This document shows, one piece after another, positions 24,168 through 45,850 of a stretch of DNA of 64,000 nucleotides. The stretch covers positions 32,304,501 to 32,368,500 of the forward strand of contig OY727094.1 in NCBI GenBank assembly GCA_963402885.1, written 5' to 3'. The notes beneath the pieces were generated by a model. It was not told where the DNA came from and made no database searches. It saw only the letters and a program-made list of their open reading frames with translations. A program made the translations under genes and the position numbers. How positions within the stretch are numbered: the stretch's first letter is position 1; each line of letters begins with the position of its first letter. This DNA is from Antedon bifida (Eukaryota; Echinodermata; Crinoidea; Comatulida; Antedonidae).

Positions 24168-27100
24168 ATGGAAGAAGAATATGAAAAGGTCTATAATTAC
24201 CTGATCAATTGTACTTATCCAGAGGGATGTTTGAAAGAGGAAAAAAGGAGGATCAGAAGGAAATGCCAAAATTTTATTATACAAGGTAAACATTTACTAC
24301 TTAAGCCGCACTACCCAAACAACCAAACTCTTTCTCTTTTAATAAAGATTATAAATAATTCATAAGTAAAATATTACATTTGAAAGAAAAATCGGTAATC
24401 ATAAAATAGTATTTAAAGGCTAAAAGACTATAGGCCTATATTTTCGTTTTTTCAATTATCATTATTACTTGTGTTACCAATGCTGTCTCCATTTTTCGTT
24501 GTCTATCTTTCTTTCTTATTTTCTTTTCCTTTTCATAGTCTACAGTAAAATGAAAAAAAAATGATACCAATATTAATCTTTAATCATAATCATAATATTA
24601 AAATCTAAGGAAAACTTCTTTTTCGAAAATGGGATGGGAGAGTGGCAAGATGCGTAAAAACAAAAGAAGAAGCAAAAGAAATCATAAGACAGGTACATGA
24701 CGTTCCAGGTAGACATCGAGGACGAAACAAAACATACAAGTTGGTGGGTGAACGTTTTTACTGGCCAGGCCAAACAATAATGGTCAATGAATGGGTAAGC
24801 TTTTAAACGTTATACAAATACTGTATACATTTTTTAAAAGATTATAATTTCTCATACACTCATTCTTTTATTCTGTTAGGCCTAACTCCCAATTTTTGTG
24901 TGTAAAAATCGTTTTATTTTAAATAATTAACATTTAGCTGACAGTTTGCAGATCAGTTAAAACTATTTACCCACTACCGGAGACAAATTGCTCGAATATG
25001 TAGAATAATGTATCTTAACAATAATTTTTTTTTTTTACTTCTTTCTAGATAAAAGATTGCTTGTCTTGCCAGAAAGCAAACAGTTCAAAATCAACAACGG
25101 AACTCCAACCAATAGCAGTATGACTTTGTTTATTTTTAGTGTTGATCTAAGGATGGTTTAATTCATTGAAAAAATAAGATCATCATCAAATCAGGCAAAC
25201 TCACTCATACTTTAGGTTGGCTAAGAGAAAGCATTTATATTTAATTAAGGGAGTATGTTTCCATTCATGTTTGATCCAAAAATGACCGAGGTTAATAATG
25301 TTGAAGTGATTAATATTATGTTTTGCAGTACACTAGCATAGCTCTGAAAACTGCATTCTTATTTAAAGATTTCAAAATTCTGCATTATTGGTCCAACTGT
25401 ACTATTTATGCAAAATACATATATCCCAATATGTTTTATGACTCCTTAATCAGTGATTTTCAAGTGGTAGCAGTCTCAATGAACACAAGGACCCTGCTGT
25501 GTTTGTCTAAACAATTCACAACAGGATACCTCATTACAATTTGGACAGGTTAAATGATCTTAGTTCAAAAATCTACTGAACTTGTACACCTCTAAAAATT
25601 TAACTTGTATTGTTCCAGGTAACAGAACCTTTCGAGAAGATGGCAATAGATGTAATGGGTCCATATAAAACATCTGATGGAGATAAATTTATATTAACAG
25701 CAACGGACTACTACACCAAATGGTGCGAGGCATTTGTCTTGCAAGATCTTGACGAGATTGCAGAATGTTTAGCAAAAATGTACTACAGACATGGTGCAGT
25801 AAAAGCAATTATAAGTCTTAATGGAAAAGAGTTTGTAAATAAGGTTAGTTCATTATGAATTATGTTTATATTTAAGCCTCTCTACAATAATTGGTTACAC
25901 TATTACAATACTGTACAACAAAACAGGGCTTTCATTGTCGATTAAATGTAAAGTAGTTGCACTTCCAATATTTATGTGTAGTAACTCTTATGTGTTCAGC
26001 TCTTGTATAAAATAAAATTAAAGTACAATATTATCATGCTATGTAAAAACAAATAAGCGATTTCTTTGTATTCCTTAAACAACTTACAAATTTGCATTGA
26101 TTTTTTCATGGGCATGCAGAAGAATAAAAAAGTCAATGCCATCTTTAATATTTTTTAACACTGTAGGTGAATGACAGACTTTGCACAATATTGGGTGCAA
26201 AAAATGGGAAAATGACAGCTTACCATCCACAATCAAACTTGGATGAAAGTACGAATAACAAAATAAAGACGTATGTATATCTTCACAATTATTCATTCAG
26301 CAGGTTTAACATACAGTAGTAGTTCCATAAATGGCTAATTGCTTTGACAACACCACTTCCTTAAGACCTTCACAGTACAAATTCCGACCATGTTGATATC
26401 CCATTATTCCCAACCAACAACCTTTCCATGACAGTTTTCAAATGTAATTTAAAAGATTCCGGTACAGTACAATTCCTGTTATTTTTAAATTTAATTACTT
26501 GCCCGAAAACCCATACCAGTACAATTAAGCCACTAATCTCAGCCCCAGACACAAAATACCCCATTTTGGCCACTATAGTGTATCAAAGAGAGTGGATAAA
26601 TTTCAAAAATTTCATGTAAAAATTCCCAGTACAAATGTGGCAATTTCAAATGTGGATGTGTACATATATTAAAAAACAAACAACCCTTCTCATTGATACA
26701 GATAGCAATAACAATATGTTTGTAATACTTAATTTCAATAACATCATCAAAATGTTGGTTTTATATTTCAGTTGCCTGAGAGAATTAATAGACCAAAAAA
26801 AAGATGACTGGGAAAGGCACCTAGATTCTGTTATTTTCGCCTTAAACATCAGCTGGCACACAACAATAAAGTCTAGTCCGTTTTTCATGCTATATCACAG
26901 GCAACCAAAAATACCGGCGGAGATCTGTGACGATGACGATGATGTTACCATTAAATGTTAGTTTCTGTGATTTCTGGAATTCTGGGTTTACTGTATATAA
27001 AATATTAAAATTTGTATAATTCTTTTTAAAGTTATTATTTTGCTATAAACTGTGTTGAAAAGTATGAAGATATGCTTATATATTACCATATGGAACTGAT

Positions 27101-30100
27101 GAGCTGAAAACATATCGAAATCTTTTTTATTTATTATCATAGGCCTACTGAAATCATTTTCTACATAATAGACAATGAATTTGATTTAAACATAAATTAA
27201 ATACTTATTTCATTTAATTTAAGACTTATTATTATTACTACTTCAGCTGATGATGAAGAGGAAGAAACAGCTGGTGATGAAGAGGAAGAAACAGCTGGTG
27301 ATAAAGAGGAAGAAACAGCTGGTGATGAAAAGGAAGAAACAGCTGGTGATGAAGAGGAAGAAACAGCTGGTGATGAAAAGGAAGAAACAGCTGGTGATGA
27401 AGAGGAAGAAACAGCTGGTGATGAAAAGGAACAGACAGCTGGTGATGAAGAGGAAGAAACAGCTGGTGATGAAAAGGAAGAAACAGCTGGTGATGAAAAG
27501 GAAGAAACAGCTGGTGATGAAGAGGAAGAAACAGCTGGTGATGAAGAGGAAGAAACAGCTGGTGATGAAGAGGAAGAAACAGCTGGTGATAAAGAGGAAC
27601 AGACAGCTGGTGATGAAAAGGAAGAAACAGCTGGTGATGAAAAGGAAGAAACAGCTGGTGATGAAAAGGAAGAAACAGCTGGTGATGAAAAGGAAGAAAC
27701 AGCTGGTGATGAAGAGGAAGAAACAGCTGGTGATGAAGAGGAAGAAACAGCTGGTGATAAAGAGGAACAGACAGCTGGTGATGAAGAGGAAGAAACAGCT
27801 GGTGATGAAGAGGAAGAAACAGCTGGTGATGAAGAGGAAGAAACAGCTGGTGATGAAAAGGAAGAAACAGCTGGTGATGAAGAGGAAGAAACAGCTGGTG
27901 ATAAAGAGGAACAGACAGCTGGTGATGAAGAGGAAGAAACAGCTGGTGATGAAGAGGAAGAAACAGCTGGTGATGAAGAGGAAGAAACAGCTGGTGATGA
28001 AAAGGAAGAAACAGCTGGTGATGAAAAGGAAGAAACAGCTGGTGATGAAGAGGAAGAAACAGCTGGTGATAAAGAGGAAGAAACAGCTGGTGATGAAGAG
28101 GAAGAAACAGCTGGTGATGAAGAGGAACAGACAGCTGGTGATGAAGAGGAAGAAACAGCTGGTGATGAAGAGGAAGAAACAGCTGGTGATGAAAAGGAAG
28201 AAACAGCTGGTGATGAAAAGGAAGAAACAGCTGGTGATGAAAAGGAAGAAACAGCTGGTGATGAAAAGGAAGAAACAGCTGGTGATAAAGAGGAAGAAAC
28301 AGCTGGTGATAAAGAGGAACAGACAGCTGGTGATGAAGAGGAAGAAACAGCTGGTGATGAAAAGGAAGAAACAGCTGGTGATGAAGAGGAACAGACAGCT
28401 GGTGATAAAGAGGAACAGACAGCTGGTGATGAAGAGGAAGAAACAGCTGGTGATGAAAAGGAAGAAACAGCTGGTGATGAAAAGGAAGAAACAGCTGGTG
28501 ATGAAGAGGAAGAAACAGCTGGTGATGAAAAGGAAGAAACAGCTGGTGATGAAAAGGAAGAAACAGCTGGTGATGAAGAGGAAGAAACAGCTGGTGATAA
28601 AGAGGAAGAAACAGCTGGTGATGAAGAGGAAGAAACAGCTGGTGATGAAAAGGAAGAAACAGCTGGTGATGAAAAGGAAGAAACAGCTGGTGATGAAGAG
28701 GAAGAAACAGCTGGTGATAAAGAGGAAGAAACAGCTGGTGATAAAGAGGAACAGACAGCTGGTGATGAAGAGGAAGAAACAGCTGGTGATGAAAAGGAAG
28801 AAACAGCTGGTGATGAAGAGGAAGAAACAGCTGGTGATGAAGAGGAAGAAACAGCTGGTGATAAAGAGGAACAGACAGCTGGTGATGAAGAGGAAGAAAC
28901 AGCTGGTGATGAAGAGGAAGAAACAGCTGGTGATAAAGAGGAACAGACAGCTGGTGATAAAGAGGAACAGACAGCTGGTGATGAAGAGGAAGAAACAGCT
29001 GGTGATGAAGAGGAAGAAACAGCTGGTGATAAAGAGGAACAGACAGCTGGTGATGAAGAGGAAGAAACAGCTGGTGATGAAGAGGAACAGAAAGCTTGTG
29101 ATGAAGAGGAAGAAACAGCTGGTGATGAAGAGGAAGAAACAGCTGGTGATGAAGAGGAACAGACAGCTGGTGATGAAGAGGAAGAAACAGCTGGTGAGAA
29201 AGAGGAACAGACAGCTGGTGATCAACATGGTCAGAGAGCAGATCTACGTAAGTACATAATGTAACTTTTGAAATTAACCTTTTATTTTAATCATTCATAT
29301 TCACTCCGACACAGATATGATCATTACGGTTTTAATTTTATTGATGCAGTTATATTATTAATTAATGAACTCTTTACTTCGGTAAAATATGACAACTAAT
29401 AGTAACTGTAAAAAACACTGTTACCATTAAAGATATATGTTTTAAATTTTTTTTGCTGAATATGCCATTTTAATATCACATAATAGTTATTCACTTTGAC
29501 CAAAAACATTTTCCCCCAATAAAATGTAATTTAAAGCATAATATACCTAAGTTGTCTGGAAGACAATGGTTTTTGGTTGAAATTAATCATTTCTTTTGTC
29601 TTTTTATAAGTGAAACAATTATTTTTGAAGTGAATAACTTTATTAAAACTGTGAAATTGCCTATTTAAAATCTGATTTTATTAATCATTATTTGTCATGT
29701 TTTTGGAGGACAATACATCTTTAAATGTTAGCTTGTGTGATTTCTGGAATTCTGGGTTTATATAAATCATTAAAATGTGTAAACATTTATTCTTCAGTTG
29801 AACTAGACGTTTGTTTTTTAAAAAGATATCCTCGTCCTGCTTTATAACTATAGATCTGTTCATACTTTATACCAAGTTTGGTTTGAACTTTATTTGAAAT
29901 AAGATTAAATATTGGTAATCAGTTATATATTTATTTATTATTTATTTTGTTAATTTCAGAAAATACAAAAAATGTATTTGTGCTTTCTGACAACAACAAA
30001 TTAGCTTGATTGCGGCAATGGTGGCCAAAGAGCCTAACGCCCGTATTCTTAATCCGAACTCGTAGTCGTAGTTCGACTTGAAAAAGTCCTAGTTCGAGCT

Positions 30101-33100
30101 ATTACTTCAAATTCGATTCATAATAGAAGTAGGCGAAGTTTGCAGTTCGACTTAATCATGTCTGGGTAACAAAGGCCAAAAGTACATTGGCCAATGACAA
30201 GAGAGTATTTGAGGAGGAGCAGACAAAATTTTGCGCATTGATCACTTTCCATTTTCCTACAAAACATTTTACTCATCAGGACTATACATCTGGATATGGA
30301 TCTTTATACTCCAATCATGGAGGTATACCTCCATGCTCCAATCACATCACACTAGAGTTTAAATGAAAAATAATTTTTATCGTTAATTATTAGAACAAGA
30401 TCAGTATTAATTTACCAGTGAAGTACTTTTGATTAACAACAAACAAAATCTTCAAAATTTGTGTAGGAACCATGGCGGTATGGTAACTTTCATATTTTCT
30501 AGGCCTCTAACAAAGTATTATCGCGACGAACCACGCACTTCATAGCGTGACAAGAAAGCGCTAGGCCCCCTAAACATTCCATCGCGTGGTGAATTTCCGC
30601 ATCTCCCATTGTCGCTATGGCGTGACGTAGTTCAAGTCGCGAAGAAAATAATGCAATTTGTATACGGTTGTAAATAAACATGATTTGCATTATTATAACA
30701 TATACCAATGTATATTTAATTAAGTTAATATAAAAATTTTATTCATTCTTCAATGACTGTTACATTTTTTATAAACCCCGTTTAAATACCATTTAGTCAA
30801 CGATTTAGCCTGCCCTCTCGAGGACTAAAAAATCGATCAAAATTCGTCTCGATTTAGTCGAGGTTGGCCTGATTTAGTTGAAGTTCGGTTTATGAATTAA
30901 AATGACGTCATTTTTAAAGTTTTAGCTCAAACTACGACTAAAGTCCGCTTTAAGAATACAGGCGTAACTGTCGCCGACCATTCCAATAAAAAGTTAAAAT
31001 GTACAAACTGAATATAATAAATTTATATGGTTCTTTGTTTTATTACTTGTTGTAGCTGTTCAGAATTTTTATACAAAGGAATCTGCTGAAAAAGGTAACT
31101 TTTTTTTGTATTGGTAGAACAAATTCTTATATAAACATACAAAATACGATAGTAGTATAAGATAGATGCTTTGACACTAAAAACAAATTGAAATTAAGTA
31201 TTATATTTTCCAAATTTTATATTTTAACTACTGTTATAATATAAATGTTAGCAATATATTATTTAACAATAATTGTAACATAAACTAGATTTAATTCGTC
31301 ACTATGACGAATTATAGGTTATATGCATTGATTTAAATAAAGATAATTGATTTTTAAAAGATATATTGATTGATTGATTGATTTTCTCAGAATCTTTAAT
31401 TATTTTAACATATTATAGGATCTTGCTAACGGGAATACAATAGCCAGTATCACAATCCCATCAAAGATCCCTCTGCATATAATGTTATAAACCATTTGTT
31501 ACATAAGTAATAAAGACATTACTTACTTTTTATATAGATTTCATTATAAATTATATGTATAAACTATAATCTATACACTAAAAAATAAAATTGAACAAAC
31601 AATACGGATATTAAAAAAAAATCTTATTTCGTTTCCCAAGGTGAGACTCGATCTTGGTACCTTAAATGCGATAGACATGAGCACAGACCACCGAGCCATA
31701 CACAACCGACTAATATTGTATAGAAAGATTCCTCCGTGTATTTACTATGCAGTAACCACTTTGGTGCAGATACAGTAGATTATTACATACTGCAATGAAT
31801 TATAATTTTTTACTATGATGACATCTTTAAAAATGTAAAACAATGATGCACTGTCAAACTATATACTTTTAACTTTAAGATATGAACTTCTGAAGGAAGA
31901 AAATTAATGTTAAGTTTGTTATTTTGGCCTAAGAAAATGTCATAATTTGTTTGATTGTCGAAATTAATTTTTTTAAATTTAATATGCGATTAATGATGAC
32001 TTAATCAACTTTTGTTCTCTTAATTTCATAATAAATAATACATATGATTCATACACTTCAAGAAAATGAAATAAAAAATAGGTGTTCCCGAGCATTCTGA
32101 CGATCTATATTAATTTTAAAATTTAGCATATTTTCATCATTTTGTTAACTTACATGTGCGTAGCCTGTCACTTTTGACGTGCTCGTATAACGCAAATTCG
32201 CGTTGAAAAGTGAATAAAATATGATGATATTATTAAAGAAAGGTTGTAAATCAGAAATCTGGCAAAGAGTGCATATTAACGTTTAACGCGCAGTGCGCGT
32301 GCTAAAATCTGCGCACTCATATTAATTTTGTAAACGCTTAAAATTGCCTGAAACGTATTACAATTTCATCGAAAATAAATTTTGACAATTTTGAAAATTT
32401 TAAGCGACCGCACGCATGCGTTATATGCGCTACGCACGTAATTGTATTGCCATATAATGAAATATGACCTGAAATTTATGAGTACTAAATTTTGGCCATA
32501 AGGAATAAACTCTGAAAAATTGACTTAGCTAGATGAAAATGATATCAAGATAATTGGATAAATAAGAGGTTATATGCATGATAATGCATATAACCTAAAT
32601 AAAGAAATAAATAAAGATTTTGACAGAATCAAGAATTAATTAATAAAAGCGGTAAAAGCACTGCAACCTATAGCCTATAAATTTAGTGGAAGTTAAAGGT
32701 TCACCTCATCTACAGTTTTTAGTAGTACAGTACTAGTAGTAGAACCCCAGTGTTCTAGTACAATGGGGATCCTGCACCAAGGTAAAATCAACTATTTTTG
32801 GTTGATTTTAAACAGGGCCAACCCTACTAGCTTACAAGATAGCAGATAACCTTCAGATATAAAAAATGGAATGTTTTAAATATAATAAATAAAAAATATT
32901 ATTCTGATTTCAGCTCTTAAGTTAGCTTGGACAAATGGAACTGTGTGTGAACAATGTTTAGTCAGCAAGATATCAAGCATTAAGATATTTGAAAGTGACA
33001 TGTTAACTCTAAAAGACTGGCTGTCAGACAAGGTAAACATATATATTGCTAATTTGTCTGTGAATCAATCAAATAAATGCAACTATCTATTATAATCAAT

Positions 33101-36100
33101 AAACAAACTGTAAATAATATAAAATAAAAAGTAAAGTAAAAGTAAAGAGTAATACCCACCAAACTAAGGTAAAATGGCAATAATATTTTCAAAATCTTTA
33201 AGGTTATAGACGCTTTCCTCGAAGTACTTGTTCTTCGAAACAAGGTAAGTGGTTTCATGTTTTCAAAGGTTTAATGTATGCATAGATCTCGAGACCCTGT
33301 TAACGAAAACAAATAAATTAATAAGTTGCATAAAATGTAATATATAGCGTCATGAGGAGATTTCCAGAATGATCGAAATCAAAACGGTACTGGGTTTGGT
33401 CTACTAGCGTTCCTGCTTCCAAAAGCCATCCATTCATAGAAGCACTAATGAAGAAAGTCTATCCATGGGGACTAATAGAGTGTGGTGGTCCCGGGACATG
33501 ACTATACTTCGGCTTTAGTTGATAGAAGATTGAAATGTTTTGTTAGAGATAAAGTATACGATCTTTTATTAAGAGATAGAGTATTCGATCTTTTATTATA
33601 TTAGTGTAAAATAGTTTGGTAAATAGTTGAATGTAATGATCTTGTACATAGATTAAATATTAAAAAAAGACAATGATATGTGTTAGTATAAAAAATAATA
33701 ATAATAATCTAACATTACAAAAAGTGTATATAGGCCTACAGTAGGCTAGATATAAGGTGAAAAGCAAAGCGATTATGGAGCGGCTATTCCAGAATATACA
33801 ATACTAAGTATCGTAAGTTTAAATTTATAAATTTTAGGCGATCTTGTCAAAGGTCAAGCACTATAGCCTGCCACGTTTTGATATTCAATATTGAACTTGA
33901 CCTGACGTGGTTCCACAATATCTTATTATGAAAATGGTAGAGTGGATAGAACATAATAAATAATTTAAAATTTACCTTTAAACTGGTTTTGAACTGAATC
34001 GGTTGATGTGTTATCGTTATCGTATTATTATTATTTTATGAATTGGTTTGATTTAAAAGTATGTTCAATAAAGTGCGTATGCGTATAGAACGAATACTGT
34101 ATGCCTGCATTTCGATGTGCGCGTGTGTTACAAAGCGTGTAATGCTAATTGCTATGTATATCGTATATTAGGAGGGAAAAAATGATAGGTATGATGGTAG
34201 AATACGAAAAAGTAGTTTAGAATGTAGAAATAGGAAATGTTTGTGGAAAATTAATTGAGACGATTAATTTTATGCACCATTTTGTATACTGTAGGAATGC
34301 CCAATTTAATTTTGATAATTGTATATATAACATACAGGTAACATTTATTGTAAAACACAAAAATGTAAATTTAAATCCATTCCCATCTTTTCCTTGTGTT
34401 ATGTTGTTTTCCCTGGTTTTATTTTAAAAATCATTTTTAAAAATTATTATTACTAATATATAATAAAACTTATCCCAATTCAGTTTACTGTGAAGATAAT
34501 TGAATCAATACAGTATACCAATATTGTAGTGGTTCTCGATAAACACAATACTTAAGTATGAACACACAAGGCTATATTATCCATAAACTGTAACTTTATA
34601 AGTACCGTTGTATCGCCATGTTATATGCGTGTGTTTATATATAGGTGGTGCTATACCTGTTTGATCTATTAATATTATCATTACAAATATTAATGAAAAA
34701 ATGAATAATAAATTGTACAATTATGGGTTGAGATGGTAGAGGGCTAATGGTTTATGTTGTTATTATAGTACTAATGTTTATTTATACAAAACTTTTACAG
34801 GAAAAGAAAATATTAAGGATTGAATCAATAACATTAACAAACATTTTAAATGGTTCATATAAATCAAGTTACTTAAAAAAGGTAAGAAAAACAAAATATG
34901 CATTGTTGAACTAAATAAATTTTATTACTTATTATTTATCATTATTGTCATCATCATTTCTATTATTAATATTAAATGGTTTATCAAATAGCCTATCTAC
35001 TATCTATTAAAATATATTTACTAATATGAATGAGGCGGTTTACTTACAGTATGCGTTATAGCTTTTCTAATGTTTATACTTAAATTAACTGCAAATTAAT
35101 TATTGCATTTATACAAACTTCTCCTTTATTTTATGTCAACATTTTGAATGAAACTAATTATGGGATGTTTGATTCCACTACAGGTTGATTTCTCCAAATA
35201 TAGCATAATAATTGGTGGATTACACGAACCCAGTCATTGGACTTTTATAGTAAGATTTTTAATTTACCTCCGCCAAGGAGGTATATGTAGTTGATCGCGT
35301 TTGTTACTTAGCAAAATTATAGTATTTACTTTGTTACTTGGCAAAATAAAATTTGCCAAGTATAGTATTTACTTTGTTTGTATATATGTTTGTTTGTTAG
35401 CACGATAGCGCCTACAGTTTGGTGTAGATAGGTATATACTTTCAGACCATGCCTATTGAAAATCAACAAAATTGGTTTATTAATAACTTCACAAATAACA
35501 AAAATGATATTATTTTCAGACCGGCTAGTGTTAAAAGATAGGAGACAATTTTCAAAAGCCGGCGAGCATTCTTAAAGTAACAAGTGTACTGAAATTGCAT
35601 TTTCTCGAGAACTACTTGTCTAAAAAACCTCATTTTTGGACAAGAGGCAAGAGTTATAAATTGTGATTTATAATTCTCAAAATATAATTTGATTTAATGT
35701 ACAGGTTTTTGATACGAGTAGTTTTAAAAAACCTATTTCTTTTCAAATTCACCAGTTTGTTTTTAGCGTTGCTGTTCTATTAGGCCTATTATTCAAATGA
35801 ATCTATTGTTAGTTGATAATTAGTTTTTAGTCGCGTGGACGCGACTCTATAGTTCACTATGTCGGTCGGTCGGTCGGTCTGGTATCACTATGCGTTTTAG
35901 CACGCGACTTATGGCTGTTGGCCTTGTTTATTACCAGCGTGTCGTGTCCTTCCTTATTTCATTCTGTACATAGGTATATACTTACAGAACATGCCTATTG
36001 ATTTTCAGGAAAATTGATATATTGGTCATGTCACAAAAGCTTATCTTCCGTACGATATATTAAATAGCACGCATTCTGTCTTCTTTTAACATGGACATAC

Positions 36101-39100
36101 TGTATTCTTTGATATGGACCAACATATTAGTCGACTGGTCGAGCGGTTAAGCTTACTCCATGGGTTAAGGCAGGGACGCCGAAAATCGGCACAGGTTCAA
36201 GACACTCCTTAACTCCTGGTCAATCTTGATTTTAGAAAGGTCATTGTTGTAATGACGGAGTTTGTTTGTATACAAAATTATTTAAACAAATTATTAACCC
36301 CAGCAGGAGTTTAACGATGTAAAGCTAATACATAAAGCAAAAAATGTATCTTTCAACATGCTCCCAATCAGTGGATATATTGTGCCAAGTACTTCACTCA
36401 GTTTCTGAGTGCTTTCATTTGTTTGTTAGCAGGATTACTCAAAAAGTAATTACAAGATCTTTACCAAAATGAAAATACAGATAGATATGTGATCAAGGAC
36501 CACTCCATTAAATTTCGAAGGCAAGCCGTACCACGGTCCCAATTCTGGACCACTTTTTAGTATAATTTTCAGACCTGCTAGTGATAAAAGATAGGACAGA
36601 ATTTTCAAAAGCTGGCGAGCAGGCTTAAAGTAACAAGTAAACTGAAAATCCATTTTCTCGAGAACTACTTGTCCAGAAAACTTCATTTTTGTACAAGAAG
36701 CAAGAGTTATAATTTTGATTTGTAATTTTTTAAAAAAAATTGATTTAATTTACAGATTTTTTGATACAAGTTGTTTTTAAAAACCTATTTCTTTTCAAAT
36801 TCACCAGTTTGTTTTTGGCATTGCTGTTCTATTGTTAGTCAACAGAATCTATTGTTAGTTGAAAGGCTGGTTACATAACCATTACACCAAATTCGCATAC
36901 ACATGCTTGTAGTGAAATAAGCCTAAATCATACACAGTATTAAAACACACGCAAATATATATATATATTTTCCCCAGAGAAATCTTATGTAGGAGAATTT
37001 TACAGTAGGCGGAGGTATGCACTCTCAGAGTGGCTTTCTAGTTTATTTTTGTAATTGTTTAGTACAATAGTAACTTTGGAGTTTTATTGTCATATTTTCA
37101 ATAAAAATGTTTTTATAATGTACATGAGTATCATGACTACACTCACAATATAAATAAATTGAAATCTGAATCAGAGTTGGATTAATAATAATTATATTGT
37201 ATTTTAGATTGGATATCCAGAGAAGAGGCTGATGCTGTATCTAAATTCTCTAGGAGAATTGGAAGATACATGCATTAACATCAAAACTAATTGGAAGTAA
37301 GTATTGACATTTTACTGTGATATGCTATATCTTATTGGAAAAAATTTTAATTTTAATATACAAATTATTGTTAGTTATTATTTTTTACATTAATTATTGG
37401 TTATCCGCAACGAAGTTGCAGGATTACCCTTGTGATTGTCAAAGATCATCATCTTTTTTTTTTTCGTTTTCTTGCGTATCTCTAAAACTTGCAAACATAA
37501 CATTTTGTAACTTTCTCAACATATCGTCATTCACGTGAAGTTGTGCAGCTAACATTTTCATTACATTTACAATTGCGCAACATGACTTACGCGCGATTTT
37601 ATGAATTTCGCGTTTTTGACATAGGTTGAAAACGAAATAAAATTTAAATATGAACCTTAGAAAAAATGGCATGTTTCACAGATAGTAACGCGCACACGCG
37701 CGTTTACAAATTACAGATGCGAAAAATAAATTTCTAATCAACTTTCTATTTCACTCGCGTGCAAATTTTTGTATGCGCGGTGCGCATGTAGGGTGCGCGT
37801 GATTTATGCTTTTCCAGGCTTTTCTAGTAATTTTAATTCAATTATCTTTCGCATGATGTACCATTTTTAAAATGTTGATGACGTCATCATGTTCGAAAGC
37901 GTGAATAACTTGGGTCACTTATTTTCATCATTACAGTAAATTTAAAATATGTTATAGCTCCTCAGAATGAAAAGTGACACTCATGATTAAAAAGTTTTCT
38001 GGAAGCTGTTGAATTGTAGATACGAATTCATGTACTGTACATATTTTGCGCATCGGATGTTGTGACGTCATCATATGGCCAGTTGAATTATAAGTCGTAT
38101 TTTCATATTTTGCGTCATAGTTCATGACATTTAAAAGAGCGCGCATCTATATTCTATGTATCCAAATTTCTTTAACACGATAATATGTTTGATGACATCA
38201 TCGTGTAAAAAAATTGGAATAAAAGACGCGTCCCGTTATTTTCACCTATTCTGCACTGTATGTAGTATATACTGTATATTATACTTAGACACAAAATAGA
38301 GAGGGCACACTAACATGTTATTTTATTTTATGTGCGGAATATTCTAACGTATGACGTGTACGTGGCGGAAAACCTAACTCGTCCATAGTGATGAGTTCAA
38401 ATCTAGTTGCATGTTAAAACTATTTGAACATTTGCCTAAGAGTATAATAATATATGAAACACACAAACAGTTTTTAGTCACGTGCAACACGACTCTACAG
38501 CTCACTATGTCGGTCGGATGGTCGGTCGGTTGGTAAACACTAACTAAAATTTGAGCATGTGACTGCAGCCATGTATATGGTTTAATTATATAAACTATAT
38601 TCAAACATCTGCAATCATAATTCACTACCTATGATTTTGAATAATTATAATTTTTCAAGGTTAACACAGTATGTTATATTTTAAATTTTATAGAATTTAA
38701 ATTTTTATTACCAATTCACACTTGGAATTTTTTTCACTTTTTTTTACAGTAAATTCCTGAAGATGAGGTTTAATACAAATGCCCCAGGCAGTAGTGCACA
38801 GAGTTGGAACATTTCCACTGCTGTGCACACAAAGCAAAGTGACAGTGCCTCATGTGGAATTTTTGTACTGAAGGTAACTAATAGTATTATTAAATAATGG
38901 TGTTAATATATCAGTGTGAGAAATGTTGGGAAAACTACATTCTATTCTTCTATTATGAATATTTGAGGCTGTCAATTTACAGTTTTCTAGCCGGAATAGT
39001 GGCGTAACGCACAGGGTCATCCAACACTGGGTAGTTGCATTAGACTGATCCCAATGGAAATAAGCTGATAAGCTTTTTGGGCTATCCTGGAAAATCTTTT

Positions 39101-41804
39101 ATAAATGTATTATTTGTAATGTCCGTAATTTATGTTATCACTTTGTATGTATTTTTTATGATGATTTTCCAAATAAATTCAAATCAAATCACTGCTCATG
39201 CTGTGGGTCCTTGACCTTGGTTTAGTCCTAACGCCACTGATGAAAAGCAAATACAAAATGATAAATAACATGTTAAAAATGTATAAAAAATGAAGAGAGG
39301 TACTAGATGTCAACATATAATTCTTGGTCCTCTTTCCTTTCATTGATTGTTTTTTTTTGCTTCCTTTTGTATTACTATTATGTATTATGGACAGTTTGTC
39401 TGAAACAAAAGTTTTTGAATGATTAATTAGACCATTGATAAAAACAGTTGATTGATGAAAGATGCTGTTCGAACTCATTTACCTTGCAAATTAAAATTAG
39501 AAAGTAAAAATTAGGACATTTTAAATTAAATTCATACATAAATCATTTTTTCTAAAGTTTGCAGAGGCAATTATTGAAGGAGGAGCATTGAATTTACAGG
39601 CCGACTCCAAATCTGTACAACAGTACAGAAAAGAGATTGGTTTGACGATCTTAATGGCATCTGGTAAATATTTTTGGATTTAGCTTGCTATACACAAAAT
39701 GCTACACTATTTTACACTTAAATTAATTCTAAATGGTTCATGCAAATCTTTTAAGGAAAAACAAAATATATCATGCATTATTTATTTACTTATTTAGTAA
39801 TTTCTGTTTTACAACCTTTATTTAGTAATTTCATCATATTTTATTCACTAAGTTAACAAAATGGTGAATATATGCTAAATTTTAAAATTAGATCGCCAGA
39901 ATGCACTGAAATCCCTATTTTGCATTTCATTTTCTTAAAGTGTATGTATCATATGTATGGTTAATTTATTATTAAATTAAAACAAAAAAAGTTGATGAAG
40001 TCATCATTCATTGCATATCAAATTTTAAACAATTAATTTCGACAATCAAACAAACTATGACATTTTCTTGGGCCGAAATAACAAATTTAACATTAACTTT
40101 CTTCTTTAAAATGTTCATATAGGCCCTATTAAAGTAAAAAGTATATACAGGTACTTTGACAGTGCATCATTTTTTTTCAAATGTTTAAAGATGTCATTCA
40201 TAGTAAACAATTATATAATTCGTTGCGGTATGTAATAATCTATCTGCACCAAAGTGGTTACTGCATAGTAAATACACGTAGAAATCTTTCTTTAACTTTC
40301 ATTCAAGGTACCGAGATCGAGCCTCACCTTGGGTAACGAAAATGAAATAAGATTTTTTTTAATTATTGTTTGTTCAATTTTCTTAGTGTATGCATGTAGA
40401 TTATACACATGATTTATAATGAAATCTAGATAGAAAGTAATAAATAGTAGTTATGTGGTTTATGATATTATACGCAGAGGGATCTTTGATCGGATTATGA
40501 TACCGGCTATTGTATTCGCGTTAGCAAGATCCTATCTTCATATATTATAAATAATTAAAGATTCTGACAAAATCAATCAATATATTTTTTAAAATCAATT
40601 ATCTTTATTTAAATCAATGCATATAACCTATAATTTGTGAAAGTAACGAATTAAATCTAGTTTATTATTATTATTATTGTCATCATTCTCATTATTAAAT
40701 GGTTTACCAAATAGCCTTTCTATTAAAGTATAATAATAATAATAATACAAACTTTATTTAATCACGGTAACACAAGGCCGTAAGACATTATACACAAATC
40801 AAATTTAACAATTAAACAAATTAACAACAAGAGTTTATCTTAATTTATACTTAAATTAGAATGAATTAGAATTTTACAATAGATTGTAAAAGCCAAATTT
40901 ACAAAAGAATAAAAATCAAAATGAACAGAGCATAAGTCTATTTTTACTTAAATAATTAAACTTAATACTAAAGATATTAATTAAATTATTAAGAATTTAA
41001 CTAAAAACTGAAAATCTTAATTTACACATCTACATTAATATTAAATTACAGTAAAACAAATTAGAATTTTAAAATTTGTAAAATCCAATAGTATATTTAC
41101 TATAAGGCATGAGGTGGTTTTATCCCTAATGTAGAATACTTTTATACTTGGTTGCTACAGTATTTTAAACTTAGTACTTTGCAAAAAATGTAAATACAGG
41201 TAGAAGAAAAAATATCTACATCTTTAATCATTTTAAAAATTTAATAGCAAAAAAATTACATTTCAGAAAATCTAACACCTTATTGCCGATTTTGTGGGGA
41301 AGAAGACATTCCAATAGGAATATATGAGGATGAATCCAAACCAAATGAATCCGATCCAACACAATGGGTGTGTAATTATAAATAATTATAATACTAATAA
41401 TGAAATTTATATTCATGTTGCTGATTAGTTATACAGTAATTTAACAATTCTTAGAATTGTTAATGTTACTAATCTAAAGAGATCATTTTTGAACAAGATA
41501 TTAATATTAAGTCAAGAGATATAATATATAATTATGTAATATTATGTAATAATATTATATTATAATGATATAATAATTACTGTAATTATTCTTTAATCAT
41601 CAATTCTAAAATAAAATTGAACATTGCTTTTATACTTCTATTTTTTAGATTGCTTGTGACACTTGTATACCTGATAAGTGGTTTCATCAAGATTGTCTGG
41701 AATCATCCAACGTTCCATTCTCAATAAGAAAATTCAGATGCTGCCAACCAAAATTAGGAAACCGAAAACCAAAAAACACAGCAAAAACAACACGACAACT
41801 ATGA
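24168..41804 (+). CDS. domesticated Ginger/gypsy-type integrase with acidic repeats, Ulp1-like protease and PHD finger
   Basis: Seventeen exons (24168-24285, 24610-24794, 25049-25117, 25619-25843, 26167-26270, 26772-26956, 27247-29247, 31056-31094, 32914-33032, 33203-33244, 34801-34881, 35184-35249, 37208-37296, 38750-38873, 39558-39663, 41267-41367, 41649-41804) join in phase with GT-AG borders to 1269 codons. Residues 41-108: integrase zinc-binding domain (His69, His75, Cys105, Cys108; RFYWPG). About 125-290: DDE core with Asp135 (AIDVMGP) and Glu226 (AYHPQ block). The middle Asp is replaced by Leu191, exactly 35 before Glu226. About 298-953: 82 acidic octapeptides. About 1000-1185: Ulp1/C48 fold with His1074 (SHW), Gln1137 and Cys1143 (SCG); the usual Asp is Asn1091. 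1191-1250: PHD finger ending Cys-Cys rather than CxxC. Ginger1 transposons and the vertebrate GIN1 gene are the closest relatives I know. Intact frame with a dead integrase site suggests a host gene. The exon-2 acceptor is the weakest joint. Confidence 0.8.
27252..29219 (+). repeat. 82 x 24-bp coding minisatellite in exon 7
   Basis: 1968 bp divide exactly into 82 units of GATGAAGAGGAAGAAACAGC plus TGGT, with no length change. In the spliced frame each unit encodes Asp-Glu-Glu-Glu-Glu-Thr-Ala-Gly, with Lys for Glu at positions 2-3 and Gln at position 5 as the common variants. Variant units recur in runs, which suggests expansion by unequal exchange. At least one other plus-strand frame and one minus-strand frame also lack stops; these are shadows of the repeat. 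Confidence 0.95.
29427..29724. mobile_element. TIR MITE, copy 1 (intron 7)
   Basis: Starts TTAAAGATATATG and ends ACAATACATCTTTAA. The interior (GAATATGCCATTTTAAT, CACATAATAGTTATTCACTT, AACTTTATTAAAACTGT) matches 48032-48337, the second copy, in the same orientation. Confidence 0.7.
30038..30964. mobile_element. 927-bp TIR element with TAA duplication (PIF/Harbinger-like)
   Basis: Left end CGCCCGTATTCTTAA, right end TTAAGAATACAGGCG, one mismatch in 15, flanked by TAA at 30035-30037 and 30965-30967. Subterminal inverted blocks CGTAGTCGTAGTTCGAC and CAAACTACGACTAAAG follow. No transposase; non-autonomous. Lies in intron 7 of the integrase-like gene. Confidence 0.65.
31284..32600 (+). mobile_element. 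hairpin-ended element (CTAGA family), intron 8
   Basis: The 5' end is ACTAGATTTAATTCGTCAC, then GACGAATT, then the terminal repeat ATAGGTTATATGCAT. The 3' end is a hairpin, GGTTATATGCATGATAATGC closing with ATATAACC (about 32572-32599), whose arm is the inverse of the 5' repeat. The same architecture, with other arm sequences, appears in the 55774-64000 array. It contains a tRNA-like segment and, at 32150-32530, the inverted core of the 20651-21404 element. An inverted truncated copy sits at 39830-40668. Confidence 0.65.
31638..31706 (-). other. tRNA-like segment inside the element
   Basis: On the minus strand ATGGCTCGGTGGTCTGTGC (A-box-like) is followed by CCAAGATCGAGTCTCACC (B-box-like). 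This could be a SINE-type polymerase III promoter rather than a real tRNA. Confidence 0.4.
33245..34800. other. intron 10, nothing recognised
   Basis: 1.56 kb of AT-rich sequence between two short Ulp1-domain exons. I see no clear transposon ends and no additional exon. Confidence 0.4.
35829..35934. mobile_element. minimal 106-bp GTCGCG/GGTC element
   Basis: Hairpin AGTCGCGTGGACGCGACT, TATAGTTCACTATGTC, a single (GGTC)n tract, GGTATCACTATGCG and AGCACGCGACT. It equals the two ends of the 20651-21404 element joined across their GGTC tracts. Confidence 0.7.
36128..36216 (+). other. tRNA-Leu/Ser-like pseudogene
   Basis: CTGGTCGAGCGGTTAAGC resembles the A box of class II tRNAs. GCCGAAAATCGGC could be a long variable arm, and GGTTCAAGACACTCC a damaged B box. 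No closed acceptor stem was found, so it is probably a SINE head or relic. Confidence 0.45.
37399..38407 (-). mobile_element. hairpin-ended element (CTAGA family), reverse copy in intron 13
   Basis: Read on the minus strand it starts ACTAGATTTGAACTC, GACGAGTT, AGGTTTTCCGCC and ends with the hairpin CCTGCAACTTCGTTGCGG plus ATAACC. The body shares AGGTGAAAATAACGGGAC, GCCATATGATGACGTCA and TTGCAAGTTTTAGAGA with the units at 55774-64000. About 1 kb, shorter than the array units. Confidence 0.7.
38475..38540. mobile_element. diverged GTCGCG/GGTC element fragment
   Basis: AGTCACGTGCAACACGACT, CTCACTATGTCGGTCGG and GGTCGGTTGGTAAACACT correspond to the start of the 35829 copy. The right end is lost. 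Confidence 0.55.
38985..39190 (+). mobile_element. possible LINE 3' end, intron 14
   Basis: GGGCTATCCTGG, a T-rich 3' region and the tail CCAAATAAATTCAAATCAA resemble the end of a CR1-like non-LTR retrotransposon. No coding part is attached. Confidence 0.35.
39715..39775 (+). pseudogene. relic copy of exon 11 within intron 15
   Basis: TTCTAAATGGTTCATGCAAA, CTTTTAAGGAAAAAC and AAAATATATCATGCATT parallel the end of exon 11 and its donor region (about 34843-34905: TTTTAAATGGTTCATATAAA, AAGGTAAGAAAAAC, AAAATATGCATT). The donor is lost (GGTAAG is GGAAAA), so it is not spliced. The homology resumes after the inserted element at about 40665-40735. Confidence 0.5.
39830..40668 (-). mobile_element. 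inverted truncated copy of the 31284-32600 element, intron 15
   Basis: The right end, read on the minus strand, is ACTAGATTTAATTCGTTAC then ATAGGTTATATGCATTG, the family 5' end. The interior matches 31310-32160 in reverse order (GATCTTTGATCGGATTATGA, AAGGTACCGAGATCGAGCCT, CACCAAAGTGGTTACTGCAT). The GTGCTCGTA core and the 3' hairpin are missing. Confidence 0.75.
40737..41090 (-). mobile_element. retrotransposon 3' UTR fragment, intron 15
   Basis: On the minus strand the segment ends TTACGGCCTTGTGTTACCG then TGATTAAATAAAGTTTGTA and a (TTA)n tail, typical of a LINE 3' end inserted at an ATA/TTA microsatellite. It splits a duplicated intron segment whose intact version is near 34930-35050. Confidence 0.5.
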
Positions 41805-41814
41805 GCTGGTAAAA

Positions 41815-43222
41815 TTAAATAATAAAATAACGAAATGCAAATGTTGCAATATTACCTTTTAATTGTCTCAAGAATCTTTGTAAATGTCCTTCTCTCGTGA
41901 TCGTGGGATCATTGTGAATTAAACGAAATTTAGTCGAGTCCTTTAGAATATCCAACATATCATTAACGTAATCATCACGATTTAGAATAACAACCCCATT
42001 TCCTTTGTCAGGCTTTATGATGATAATATCTTGCAATATTTTGCATCTCTTTAGATCCGTGCATGTTGGACAAACGATGAGACATATTGGTGCGCTACAG
42101 TAGGTGTGAGATGTCTGATTTCAACCTACCCAAAAAGATAGGGTCAGTTATATGATTGAGCATATTACGATGTATCATTTTAAAGCATGTGTAAATATTA
42201 GATTTGCAAATCTTAGGTGGTACAATGGAATGTGTGAGACCAAATTTTAAAACGCCCTCCTGCTCTTCATTGAGATGAAAAGACGACAGATTAATTAAAA
42301 CAAGTACGTACCATATTTCTAGTGAGATTACACATCTTCTTTAAATGCGTCAAAACTACCTTATCTTCCTCTCGGTTTACATTGCGTCGTATAGCCTTAG
42401 TGAGAAAGTAAAAGTCCAGCGAATTTAAAATGGACTTGACATCAGCTTCGTTCGTTGTTTAGCTTACGCAGTTTCTTAGATCGTTTGTTAATGGCCGTTC
42501 GTAATGGCCGTTCGTAATAACCGTTTTCTAATTGCACCAACATTGTGATAGCCGACTCCGGGTAGATCAAAGCAAATAAATTTCGGGAACACGTTGAACC
42601 CTGAACAATTTTTTCAGAAAGTTCACATCAAGCAACGCTTTCCTACTCTTGATAGACAACTTCTCAGCTTTCCGTAGATAACTTATTAGTAGTTGGCCTC
42701 TGTATTTGTTAGATAAATCATGAATGATTCCACCGAACTTTCGATTTAAAATAACTATAATGAGGCATTTAATGAATAGGCAAACTGCCTTAAAATGTGA
42801 CATGTTTCGAGAAACTATTCTCATCATCAGAACAGAAAACAACGTATGTAAATGAGGAAGTAATTCGCATGATAAAACAACAAGGAACGTAGGCAACAAA
42901 CAATCATATTATGGCAAGCGTGACGCGGGCTGTGACGCCTAAGTTATAGATTAATTGTTTGTTCTAAGGAAGGTTTACTCCACGTGATGTGGAGGGCTTT
43001 CTTAAGTTTGAAAGCGGAATCTGCAGAATCCAGAACGGTGAAGCATTCCGCATTAGCTAGGGCCTTACACCGTTCTGAATCCTGCAGATGTTGAAAAATG
43101 TGAGAAGCCTTGTCCCTGAAATGTTCATGCACCCGCATTGATAACCGTCTATTGGTTTCACCAACATACATGGAATTACATCTCATACATTTTTTTTTTC
43201 ATACATTAAATTTATATACAAC
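41815..43222 (-). mobile_element. Penelope-like retroelement, broken head-to-tail joint
   Basis: On the minus strand, 43222-42944 encodes the C-terminal GIY-YIG endonuclease of a Penelope-like element (YVGETNRRLS, a VHEHFRDKASH stretch, the final Leu-rich tail and stop). Then, after about 50 bases, come sequences of the N-terminal region (42899-42300) and the start of the reverse transcriptase (LNEEQEGVLKFGL, then DKGNGVVILN near 41960-42010). Endonuclease before polymerase means the 3' end of one copy is joined to the 5' part of the next, as in Penelope partial tandems. Frameshifts and in-frame stops make it dead. It begins only 11 bp after the stop of the integrase-like gene. Confidence 0.75.
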
Positions 43223-43249: not shown

Positions 43250-45850
43250 GTCCTTAGGACCCTGTAACAGAATATCCCCTCTCTGTTTTAATAAGTTCTG
43301 AATCGATATTCATCATTATCGATCAATTCTCAACACTATGTCAAAATATCAATAAAAATTCATTTGGTTAAATATCAGAATATCATACAAACTGGAGGGG
43401 GTTCGTTTTCACGGCATCTTTCAAGTTCAACCCCCTGTGACAGAATATTTCCTCTGCTTTAATAAGTTCTGAATCAATATTCATCATTATTTTTTTCATA
43501 ATCGATCAGTTCTCAACACTATGTCAAAATATCAATAAAATAAAATGTTGTTAAATATCAGAATATCATTGGAGGGGGTACGTTTTCACAGCATCTATAA
43601 AGTTCAACCCCCTGTAACAGAATATCCCCCTCTACTCTGTATTAATAAGTTCTGAATCAATATTCATCATTATTTTTTCATAATCGATCAGTTCTCAACA
43701 CTATGTCAAAATATCAATAAAATAAAATGTTGTTAAATATCAGAATATCATTGGAGGGGGTACGTTTTCACAGCATCTATAAAGTTCAACCCCCTGTAAC
43801 AGAATATCCCCCTCTGTTTTAATAAGTTCTGAATCGATATTCATCATTATTTTTTTCATAATCGATCATTTCTCAACACTATGTCAAAATAGCAATAAAA
43901 ATTAATTTGGTTAAATACCAGAATATCATAAAAATTGGAGGGGGTTTGTTTTCACGGCATCTATCAAATTCAACCCCTGTAACAGAATATCCCCCTCTGT
44001 TTTAGTAAGTTCTGAATCGATATTCATCATTATTTTTTTCATAATCGATCAGTTCTCAACACTATGTCAAAATATCAATAAAAATTAATTTGGTTAAATA
44101 TCAGAATATCATAAAAATTGGAGGGGTTCGTTTTCATGGCATCTATCAAGTTCAACCCCTGTGACAGAATACCTTTATATCTCATTTACGTACGATTTAA
44201 TATTTATATCTCTATCTTTTTAAAAAAAATATATTGGTAGTGAAGGGAAAAAATAACGTTGAACTGACCCGGCGTTTCTCGAGCACTCTCCTATCGAATC
44301 ATTATACAGTATTGCATTAATAATTTACGTACGGTATTGCCGAATCTTTATATCTCATTTACATCTATCGCATCTTTATACAGTATTGCATTATTAATTT
44401 ACGTTTTACTAATCGATCAGTTCTCAACACTATGTCAAAAAATCAATACAAATGAATTTGGTTAAATATCAGAATATCATAAAAATTAGAGGGGGTTTGT
44501 TTTCACGGCATCTATAAAGTTCAACACCCTGTAACAGAATATCCCCCCTCTGTTTAATAAGTTCTGAATCGATAGTCATCATTATTTGTTTTCATAATCG
44601 ATCAGTTCTCAACACTGTGTCAAAATATCAATAAAATAAAATTTGGTTAAATATCAGAATATCATAAAAATTTGACGGGGTTCGTTTTCACGGCACCAAA
44701 AAGTTCAGCGCCCTGTAACAAAATAACCCCCCTCTGTTTTAATAAGTTCTAAATCGATGTTCATTATTTTTTCATAATCGATGAATTCTCAACACTATGT
44801 CAAAATATCAATAAAATTAAATTTGGCTAAATATCAGAATATCATAAAAAATTTGACGGGGTTCGTTTTCAAGGCATCTTTCAAGTTCAACCCATTGTAA
44901 CAGAATATCCCCCTCTGTTTTAATAAGTTCTGAATCGAAATTCATCATTATTTTTTCATAATCAATCAATTGTCAACACTATGTCAAAATATCAATAAAA
45001 ATTAATTTGGTTAAATATCAGAATATCATACAAACTGGAGGGGGTTCGTTTTCACGGCATCTTTCAAGTTCAACCCATTGTAACAGAATATCCCATCTCT
45101 GTTTTAATAAGTTCTGAATCGATATTCATCATCATTTTTTCATAATCGATCAATTCTCAACATTATGTCAAAATATCAATAAAAATAAATTTGGTTAAAT
45201 ATCAGAATATCATAAAAATTGGAGGGGGTCGTTTTCACGGCATCTTTCAAGTTCAACCCCCTGTAACAAAATATCCCCCCTCTGTTTTAATAAGTTCTAA
45301 ATCGATGTTCATCATTATTTTTTTTATAATCGATCAATTCTCAACATTATGTCAAAATATCAATAAAAATAAATTTGGTTAAATATCAGAATATCATAAA
45401 AATTGGAGGGGGTACGTTTTCACGGCATCTATCAAGTTCAACCCCTGTAACAGAATATCCCCCTCTGTTTTAGTAAGTTCTGAATCGATATTCATCATTA
45501 TTTTTTCACAATCAACCAATTCTCAACACTATGTCAAAATATCAATAAAACTGAATTTGGTTAAATATCAGAATATCATACAATCTGGAGGGATTTCGTT
45601 TTCACGGCATCTATCAAGTTCAACCCCCTGTAACAGAATATCCTCCCTCTGTTTTAATAAGTTCTGAATCGATATTCATCATTATTTTTTTCATAATCGA
45701 TCAGTTCTCGACACTATGTCAAAATATCAATAAAAATTAATTTGGTTAAATATCAGAATATCATAAAAATTGGAGGGGTTCGTTTTCATGGCATCTATCA
45801 AGTTCAACCCCTGTGACAGAAAACTCCCTCTGTTTTATAAGTTCTCAACA
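43250..45850. repeat. 170-185-bp satellite, about 14 monomers
   Basis: Monomers contain TTTTAATAAGTTCTGAATCG, ATATTCATCATTATTTTTTC, ATAATCGATCAGTTCTCAAC, ACTATGTCAAAATATCAAT, GGTTAAATATCAGAATATCA, GGAGGGGGTTCGTTTTCAC and AAGTTCAACCCCCTGTAACAG. Spacing measured at AAGTTCTGAAT is 171-183 bp. The array is broken at 44168-44410 by unrelated repeat sequence. Two reverse copies lie at 12606-12930. Confidence 0.9.
44168..44410 (-). repeat. inverted fragment of the 16564-17290 minisatellite locus inside the satellite
   Basis: GTTTCTCGAGCACTCTCC then TATCGAATCATTATACAG, followed by TTTACGTACGGTATTGCC, is the reverse complement of the right border of the 76-bp minisatellite (about 17100-17260), including its non-repeat flank. 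Confidence 0.8.

Follow-up and report, generated by a model that had tools for sequence, protein, structure and literature searches.

A probably immobile, Ginger1-derived gene of the crinoid Antedon bifida joins an altered integrase to a retained Ulp1-like domain

Ginger1 DNA transposons already combine an integrase, a Ulp1 protease and a PHD finger, as the sections of Bao et al. (2010; PMC2836005) drawn on here describe for Ginger1-9_HM of Hydra, so the integrase–Ulp1–PHD fusion is not new. The same sections bear out the first-pass annotation where it ascribed this combination of domains to Ginger1 transposons. Ginger1 elements have terminal inverted repeats (TIRs) of approximately 40–270 bp with CCGG/CCGT target duplications, and Table 1 of that article gives 0–4 introns. 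GIN2 is described by its HHCC finger, integrase and GPY/F parts, and the word 'Ulp1' occurs 0 times in the accessible text of PMC3424704. Among the literature matches listed, there was no report of a crinoid gene of this kind. Here we describe such a gene in a 64,000-nucleotide stretch (the window) of contig OY727094.1 of Antedon bifida.

The gene model at 24168..41804 on the forward strand was reproduced exactly. It has 17 exons with consistent phases, GT-AG borders in 16 of 16 introns, and 1269 codons closed by one terminal stop (Table 1). All of this stands as first proposed, but the description 'intact' does not, given the losses relative to a paralog on contig C1 described below. The model was read from DNA alone, and its splice sites were selected to keep the frame, which is what one would see if exons of separate transposons had been strung into one model. 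We regard such an artefact as very improbable. The C1 paralog shows the identical exon order with usable splice sites and thus supports the exon chain independently. The matches to known proteins also run across several exon joints, both for the N-terminal part against the PFV integrase (1e-13, best chain) and for the C-terminal part against SENP1 (3.8e-12).

Table 1. Features of the gene and its immediate 3′ flank, in window coordinates.
Feature	Position	Strand	Basis
Exon 1, start codon and YPYY-like segment	24168..24285	+	75–80% protein match in C1, L045, L046
Exon 2, H2C2 zinc finger	24610..24794	+	Pfam match
Exon 3, CxxC of H2C2 finger	25049..25117	+	Pfam match
Exon 4, integrase core; first Asp kept, second Asp to Leu (SLNG; C1 SDNG)	25619..25843	+	alignments to PFV integrase and C1
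Exon 5, integrase core, catalytic Glu kept	26167..26270	+	PFV integrase alignment
Exon 6, end of integrase core; the paralog's following exon is GPY/F	26772..26956	+	rebuilt model
Exon 7, 2001 nt, phase 1 at both ends, acidic 24-bp repeat x 82.5, consensus DEEEETAG	27247..29247	+	repeat analysis
Exon 8, linker, phase 1 at both ends	31056..31094	+	rebuilt model
Exon 9, start of Ulp1-like domain	32914..33032	+	SENP1 alignment
Exon 10, Ulp1-like	33203..33244	+	SENP1 alignment
Exon 11, Ulp1-like	34801..34881	+	SENP1 alignment
Exon 12, Ulp1-like, catalytic His (HW)	35184..35249	+	SENP1 alignment
Exon 13, Ulp1-like, Asn at triad Asp position (YLNSLG)	37208..37296	+	SENP1 alignment; Asn also in C1, C7b
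Exon 14, Ulp1-like, Gln and catalytic Cys (KQSDSASCG)	38750..38873	+	SENP1 alignment
Exon 15, end of Ulp1-like domain	39558..39663	+	rebuilt model, protease-half genome search
Exon 16, PHD-like finger, first Cys pair	41267..41367	+	Pfam match below cut-off
Exon 17, rest of PHD-like finger (last Cys pair CC) and stop	41649..41804	+	Pfam match below cut-off, paralog comparison
C-terminal domain remnant NYELVKLNNKITKCKCC, other frame, outside the predicted product	41797..41859	+	resembles C1 and C7b tails

The 24-bp tandem array of exon 7 (82.5 copies at 27244–29222) changes how the length of the open frame is to be read. Besides the gene frame, one more frame on the forward strand and three on the reverse strand are open across the array, so an open frame over the repeat is no evidence of coding. 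The evidence from the open frame therefore comes from 602 non-repeat codons, and the earlier argument that 1269 open codons are a sign of life does not hold. The exon could be skipped without a frameshift, because both of its ends are in phase 1. Among the 83 repeat units (the last being an edge unit), we counted 1 synonymous and 65 nonsynonymous codon changes; these were set aside as evidence of selection, because they come mostly from a few shared unit types. The introns of the gene hold an inverted pair of repeats (31280–32258 and 39800–40665) with 86.3% identity over 884 aligned bases.

Profile searches of the joined product placed Integrase_H2C2 (PF17921; 4e-16) and Peptidase_C48/Ulp1 (PF02902; 3.3e-12) above their Pfam cut-offs. 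The two other domains named in the first-pass annotation fell below theirs: rve at 9.3e-5 (23.1 bits against 32.6) and PHD at 0.0082 (16.6 bits against 24). Both pass in the C1 paralog, where PHD reaches 34.4 bits. In the alignment to the PFV integrase, two residues of the catalytic triad are kept (first Asp and Glu), and Leu stands in place of the second Asp. The DDE triad is thus incomplete in the window copy, whereas it is intact in C1. The codon at this position is GAC in C1 and CTT in the window copy. All three bases differ, which points to an early loss of catalysis in an exon that otherwise remained open. A GPY/F exon was not found in the window by tblastn; it is found in C1 and in two partial copies (L045 and L046). 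The segment in exon 1 reads Y, P, F, F at plausible spacing against YPYY, as judged by eye without a reference alignment. The PHD-like finger departs from the C4HC3 pattern, since its last pair is CC and not CxxC (by eye). The C-terminal domain is frameshifted and shortened, and its remnant lies directly before a repeat fragment. Fragments at 41818–43198 on the reverse strand, which we take to be a Penelope-like element, lie against the end of the gene; their GIY-YIG match of 0.02 is below the cut-off.

The alignment of the Ulp1-like domain to SENP1 shows that His, Cys and the oxyanion Gln are kept and that Asp is replaced by Asn. This Asn is common to the window gene, the C1 paralog and a second paralog on contig C7 (C7b). 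In CE-clan proteases, the third residue may be Asp, Glu or Asn, according to the part of PMC1847702 consulted.

These observations do not fit the proposal of a host gene 'keeping the whole set'. The second catalytic Asp, the GPY/F exon and the C-terminal domain are lost, and the PHD-like finger is damaged. Such losses, together with rve and PHD scores that fall under the cut-offs here and over them in C1, favor a decaying duplicate: C1 would be the working gene, and the window copy would have lost constraint recently and be drifting to a pseudogene. This is a serious rival to a domesticated protease gene, and we consider it possible. Several lines of evidence oppose it. The 602 non-repeat codons contain no stop, and every intron retains its GT-AG borders. 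In a neutral simulation that scored stops only, the probability of zero stops was 0.166 at 2% divergence, 0.033 at 4% and 0.008 at 6%, which leaves a short neutral period compatible with the data. A test of the window lineage, described below, also argues against decay.

Other members of the family were sought in the genome (315.6 Mb, 27 contigs). The COX1 of this genome reads through 660 residues under the echinoderm mitochondrial code, and among 120 database matches listed (8000 scored) the top five bear the crinoid names Tropiometra, Metacrinus, Comanthus (two) and Comatulinae, at 91–93%. The window gene is not single-copy: paralogs and fragments exist. The most complete is the C1 paralog at C1:20243527-20255745, which has the exon order of the window gene, the intact DDE triad, the GPY/F exon and an extra C-terminal domain; when joined, it comprises 41 exons and 1087 codons. 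The remaining relatives are broken or partial, which counts in favor of the decaying duplicate. The 5′ half occurs in two further copies, one on C8 and one on C12 (L045, L046). BLAST gives 98.5% identity between the two and 95.2% identity to C1, and the C12 copy agrees with C1 at 98.1% of aligned bases when gaps are ignored. The two copies share an in-frame stop in exon 6, and no Ulp1 or PHD exons were found beside them (10 kb around each). C7b has the protease/PHD exons, with exon 12 apparently frameshifted. The 18.5 kb upstream of it holds no close integrase exon and one distant match (22.6%). A 157-bp tandem array of approximately 22 copies (L033–L034, about C7:13564441-13567911) also lies upstream of this truncated paralog. 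Single exon pieces of the family occur on C8, C10 and C13. A dispersed repeat (L036, L041, L042; approximately 89–97% alike) carries an exon-15-like piece followed by an exon-1-like piece of the window gene.

The genome search with the protease half returned 25 matches, and the window gene's own exons accounted for eight of these. The search with PF02902 gave six matches, and the window gene was not among them; such a search thus misses genes that are split into small exons. The integrase half gave 133 matches, mostly at approximately 26–35% identity, most of which are probably Gypsy elements; the eight Gypsy-like loci compared with it showed 25–32% identity. We rejected a Gypsy retrotransposon as the source of the window gene, since it is without the reverse-transcriptase/RNase H sequence that was seen by eye in four translated loci (L005–L008). 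Protein-database searches gave 128 matches for the integrase half, of which 120 were listed. Among the matches listed, the nearest were plant Gypsy proteins at approximately 30% identity, and one mayfly protein was also named. The protease half gave no match in the protein database, and no animal relative of the whole window protein was among the protein-database matches listed.

At the DNA level, the search with 24168–27240 scored 40 of 802 candidates and returned at least 56 matches. The window gene's own locus was the only one of these that matched over the full length. The next-scoring matches were those on C12, C8 and C1 (72–74% over 1.1–1.2 kb), and short pieces of approximately 55–110 bases matched at 87–93%. 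No second copy nearly identical to the integrase half was present among the 40 candidates scored.

Comparison of the window gene with the C1 paralog gave dN/dS values of 0.215 for the integrase half (292 codons, bootstrap 0.149–0.307) and 0.195 for the other half (302 codons, bootstrap 0.118–0.286). A value near 0.2 is averaged over both branches, and any neutral period could then account for no more than roughly one fifth to one third of the divergence. A three-gene lineage test was carried out on the protease/PHD half (238 codons) with C7b, itself truncated, as the outgroup. Over these codons, the window and C1 genes are 66.8% identical, versus 50.4% and 52.9% to C7b. On the window lineage, 11 changes are synonymous and 11 nonsynonymous, against an expected nonsynonymous share of 79% (p=0.0023); this result rests on the 57 of 238 codons that are identical in C1 and C7b. 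For the C1 lineage, the corresponding counts are 17 and 11 over 63 codons (p=6.7e-6). Purifying selection on the window gene is thus supported between the paralogs and, for the protease/PHD half, on the window lineage. With introns as the yardstick, the ratios are higher: approximately 0.36 for the integrase half (dN 0.136, intron distance 0.373) and approximately 0.29 for the other half, the latter on introns that barely align. These higher ratios count against our preferred reading, given below.

The two halves differ in age. The dS between the window and C1 genes is 0.634 in the integrase half and 1.242 in the other half, and intron identity is 70.6% (3 of 5 introns used) and approximately 50% (2 of 8 used), respectively. 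This is consistent with gene conversion, or with the integrase half having been exchanged later.

The locus sits between ordinary genes, because flanking exons match HELLS (LSH; reverse-strand ORF at 449–1537, 1.1e-35) and an NFATC2IP-like SUMO-like protein (forward-strand ORF at 49284–50402, 1.2e-7). The position of a Ulp1-like gene near a SUMO-like gene may be chance. A 183-bp satellite array lies at 43313–45845, and relatives of it adjoin the C1 paralog and the C8 and C12 copies. No TIRs were found at the window gene among the 25 of 27 inverted pairs listed (arms ≥30 nt). Short-word comparison of 6.2 kb upstream with 5.2 kb downstream found none either; weak satellite matches aside, the flanks shared no inverted repeat. 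At the C1 paralog no TIRs were found, and the longest match between the flanks was 17 nt. Many near-identical copies bearing TIRs, named earlier as the sign of a live element, were thus not found. On the lack of detected TIRs and, among the candidates scored, of a near-identical integrase half, we rejected a live transposon at the window gene.

The gene could instead belong to a large, intron-rich, low-copy family of Ginger1-type transposons that is still mobile, perhaps through the C1 copy. We consider this unlikely, even though C1 retains the DDE triad, GPY/F, Ulp1 and PHD, and the likeness of the C8 and C12 copies to each other indicates that the 5′ half was copied fairly recently. The lack of detected TIRs at both the window and C1 argues against it, as does the number of introns (16, against 0–4 in Table 1 of PMC2836005). 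The C8 and C12 copies bring a satellite array along and have no Ulp1 or PHD exons nearby, which fits duplication and not transposition.

The linker between the two halves differs among the copies. In C1, it consists of 23 in-phase mini-exons of 30 nt and one exon of 48 nt between the GPY/F exon and exon 8. The mini-exons have AG and GTAAG flanks, are in phase 1 at both ends, and encode DDVTEPHHEP or close variants; a 24th copy is without a usable acceptor. They lie in an array of approximately 140-bp units (L031 1646–5549; C1:20246646-20250549), of which 23 hold a 30-nt mini-exon. The C7b linker has three 27-nt mini-exons and one acidic exon of 51 nt, all in phase 1 at both ends. The ancestral linker may therefore have been short, with mini-exons and one acidic exon; C1 would then have multiplied the mini-exons and the window copy would have expanded the acidic exon. 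The linker would thus have been lengthened by two different routes in two copies, an in-exon minisatellite and a mini-exon array.

Taken together, the window gene is probably Ginger1-derived, immobile, clearly altered from its transposase ancestor and under constraint. Our preferred reading, to which we assign a probability of roughly one half, is an immobile Ginger1-derived gene that is no longer a DDE integrase, with the integrase part serving as a tether, an acidic spacer, and a Ulp1-type protease that was kept. Under this reading, integrase, Ulp1 and PHD domains were already combined in the ancestral Ginger1-type transposase, which gave rise to a small family in the crinoid genome. The window copy would have ceased to be a DDE integrase with the change of the second catalytic Asp to Leu and with no GPY/F exon found. 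It retains the zinc finger, the remainder of the integrase core and the Ulp1-type domain with its His, Asn, Gln and Cys. We infer that the integrase part has most likely become a binding or tethering module, with the long acidic spacer linking it to a protease directed at a ubiquitin-like modifier, for example SUMO. The loss of the PHD ligand spacing and of the C-terminal domain speaks against this preferred reading, being in the direction expected of decay. A more specific version would have the dead Ginger1 integrase of a host gene tether a working Ulp1-type protease, with a His-Asn-Cys triad, to chromatin, and would have selection enlarge the spacer repeatedly, through the 24-bp repeat in the window copy and the mini-exon array in C1; this fuller version is doubtful. 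Expression, protease activity, a substrate and a nuclear role would be predicted for the product, and targeted deSUMOylation at chromatin might be its function. The gene has perhaps been domesticated for its protease half. If so, the accessory protease half would be the part that was kept, while the text consulted on other Ginger1-derived host genes discusses them by their integrase part. Having a complete-looking and a non-catalytic-looking copy in one genome opens a way to study why transposases take up Ulp1 and PHD domains.

The support for a putative Ginger1 origin comes from domain architecture, namely the H2C2 finger, integrase core, Ulp1 domain and PHD-like finger, with GPY/F in the paralog, and not from a tree; judged by sequence, plant Gypsy proteins were nearest among the matches listed, which speaks against this assignment. 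Like Ginger1 elements, the window gene has an H2C2 finger, a Gypsy-like integrase core, a Ulp1 domain, a PHD-like finger and introns, and its C1 paralog has GPY/F. Unlike them, it has 16 introns rather than 0–4, a long repeat spacer, no TIRs that could be found, no second catalytic Asp and no GPY/F exon found. GIN1 and GIN2, as presented in the available parts of PMC2836005 and PMC3424704, are likewise Ginger1-derived, multi-exon and immobile, and GIN2 also departs from DDE; the window gene differs from both in having a Ulp1-like protease and a PHD-like finger. Imagin of malacostracan crustaceans, in the accessible text of PMC12863088, is similarly Ginger1-derived, without inverted repeats, with DDE lost and under purifying selection. 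It is single-copy with syntenic orthologues, whereas the window gene has paralogs and was compared within one genome. The words 'Ulp1' and 'PHD' occur 0 times in that text, whereas the protease half of the window gene is present and constrained. The window product shares the catalytic His, Gln and Cys with the SENP/Ulp1 proteases (family C48), and it is set apart from them by Asn in place of Asp and by its fusion to an integrase.
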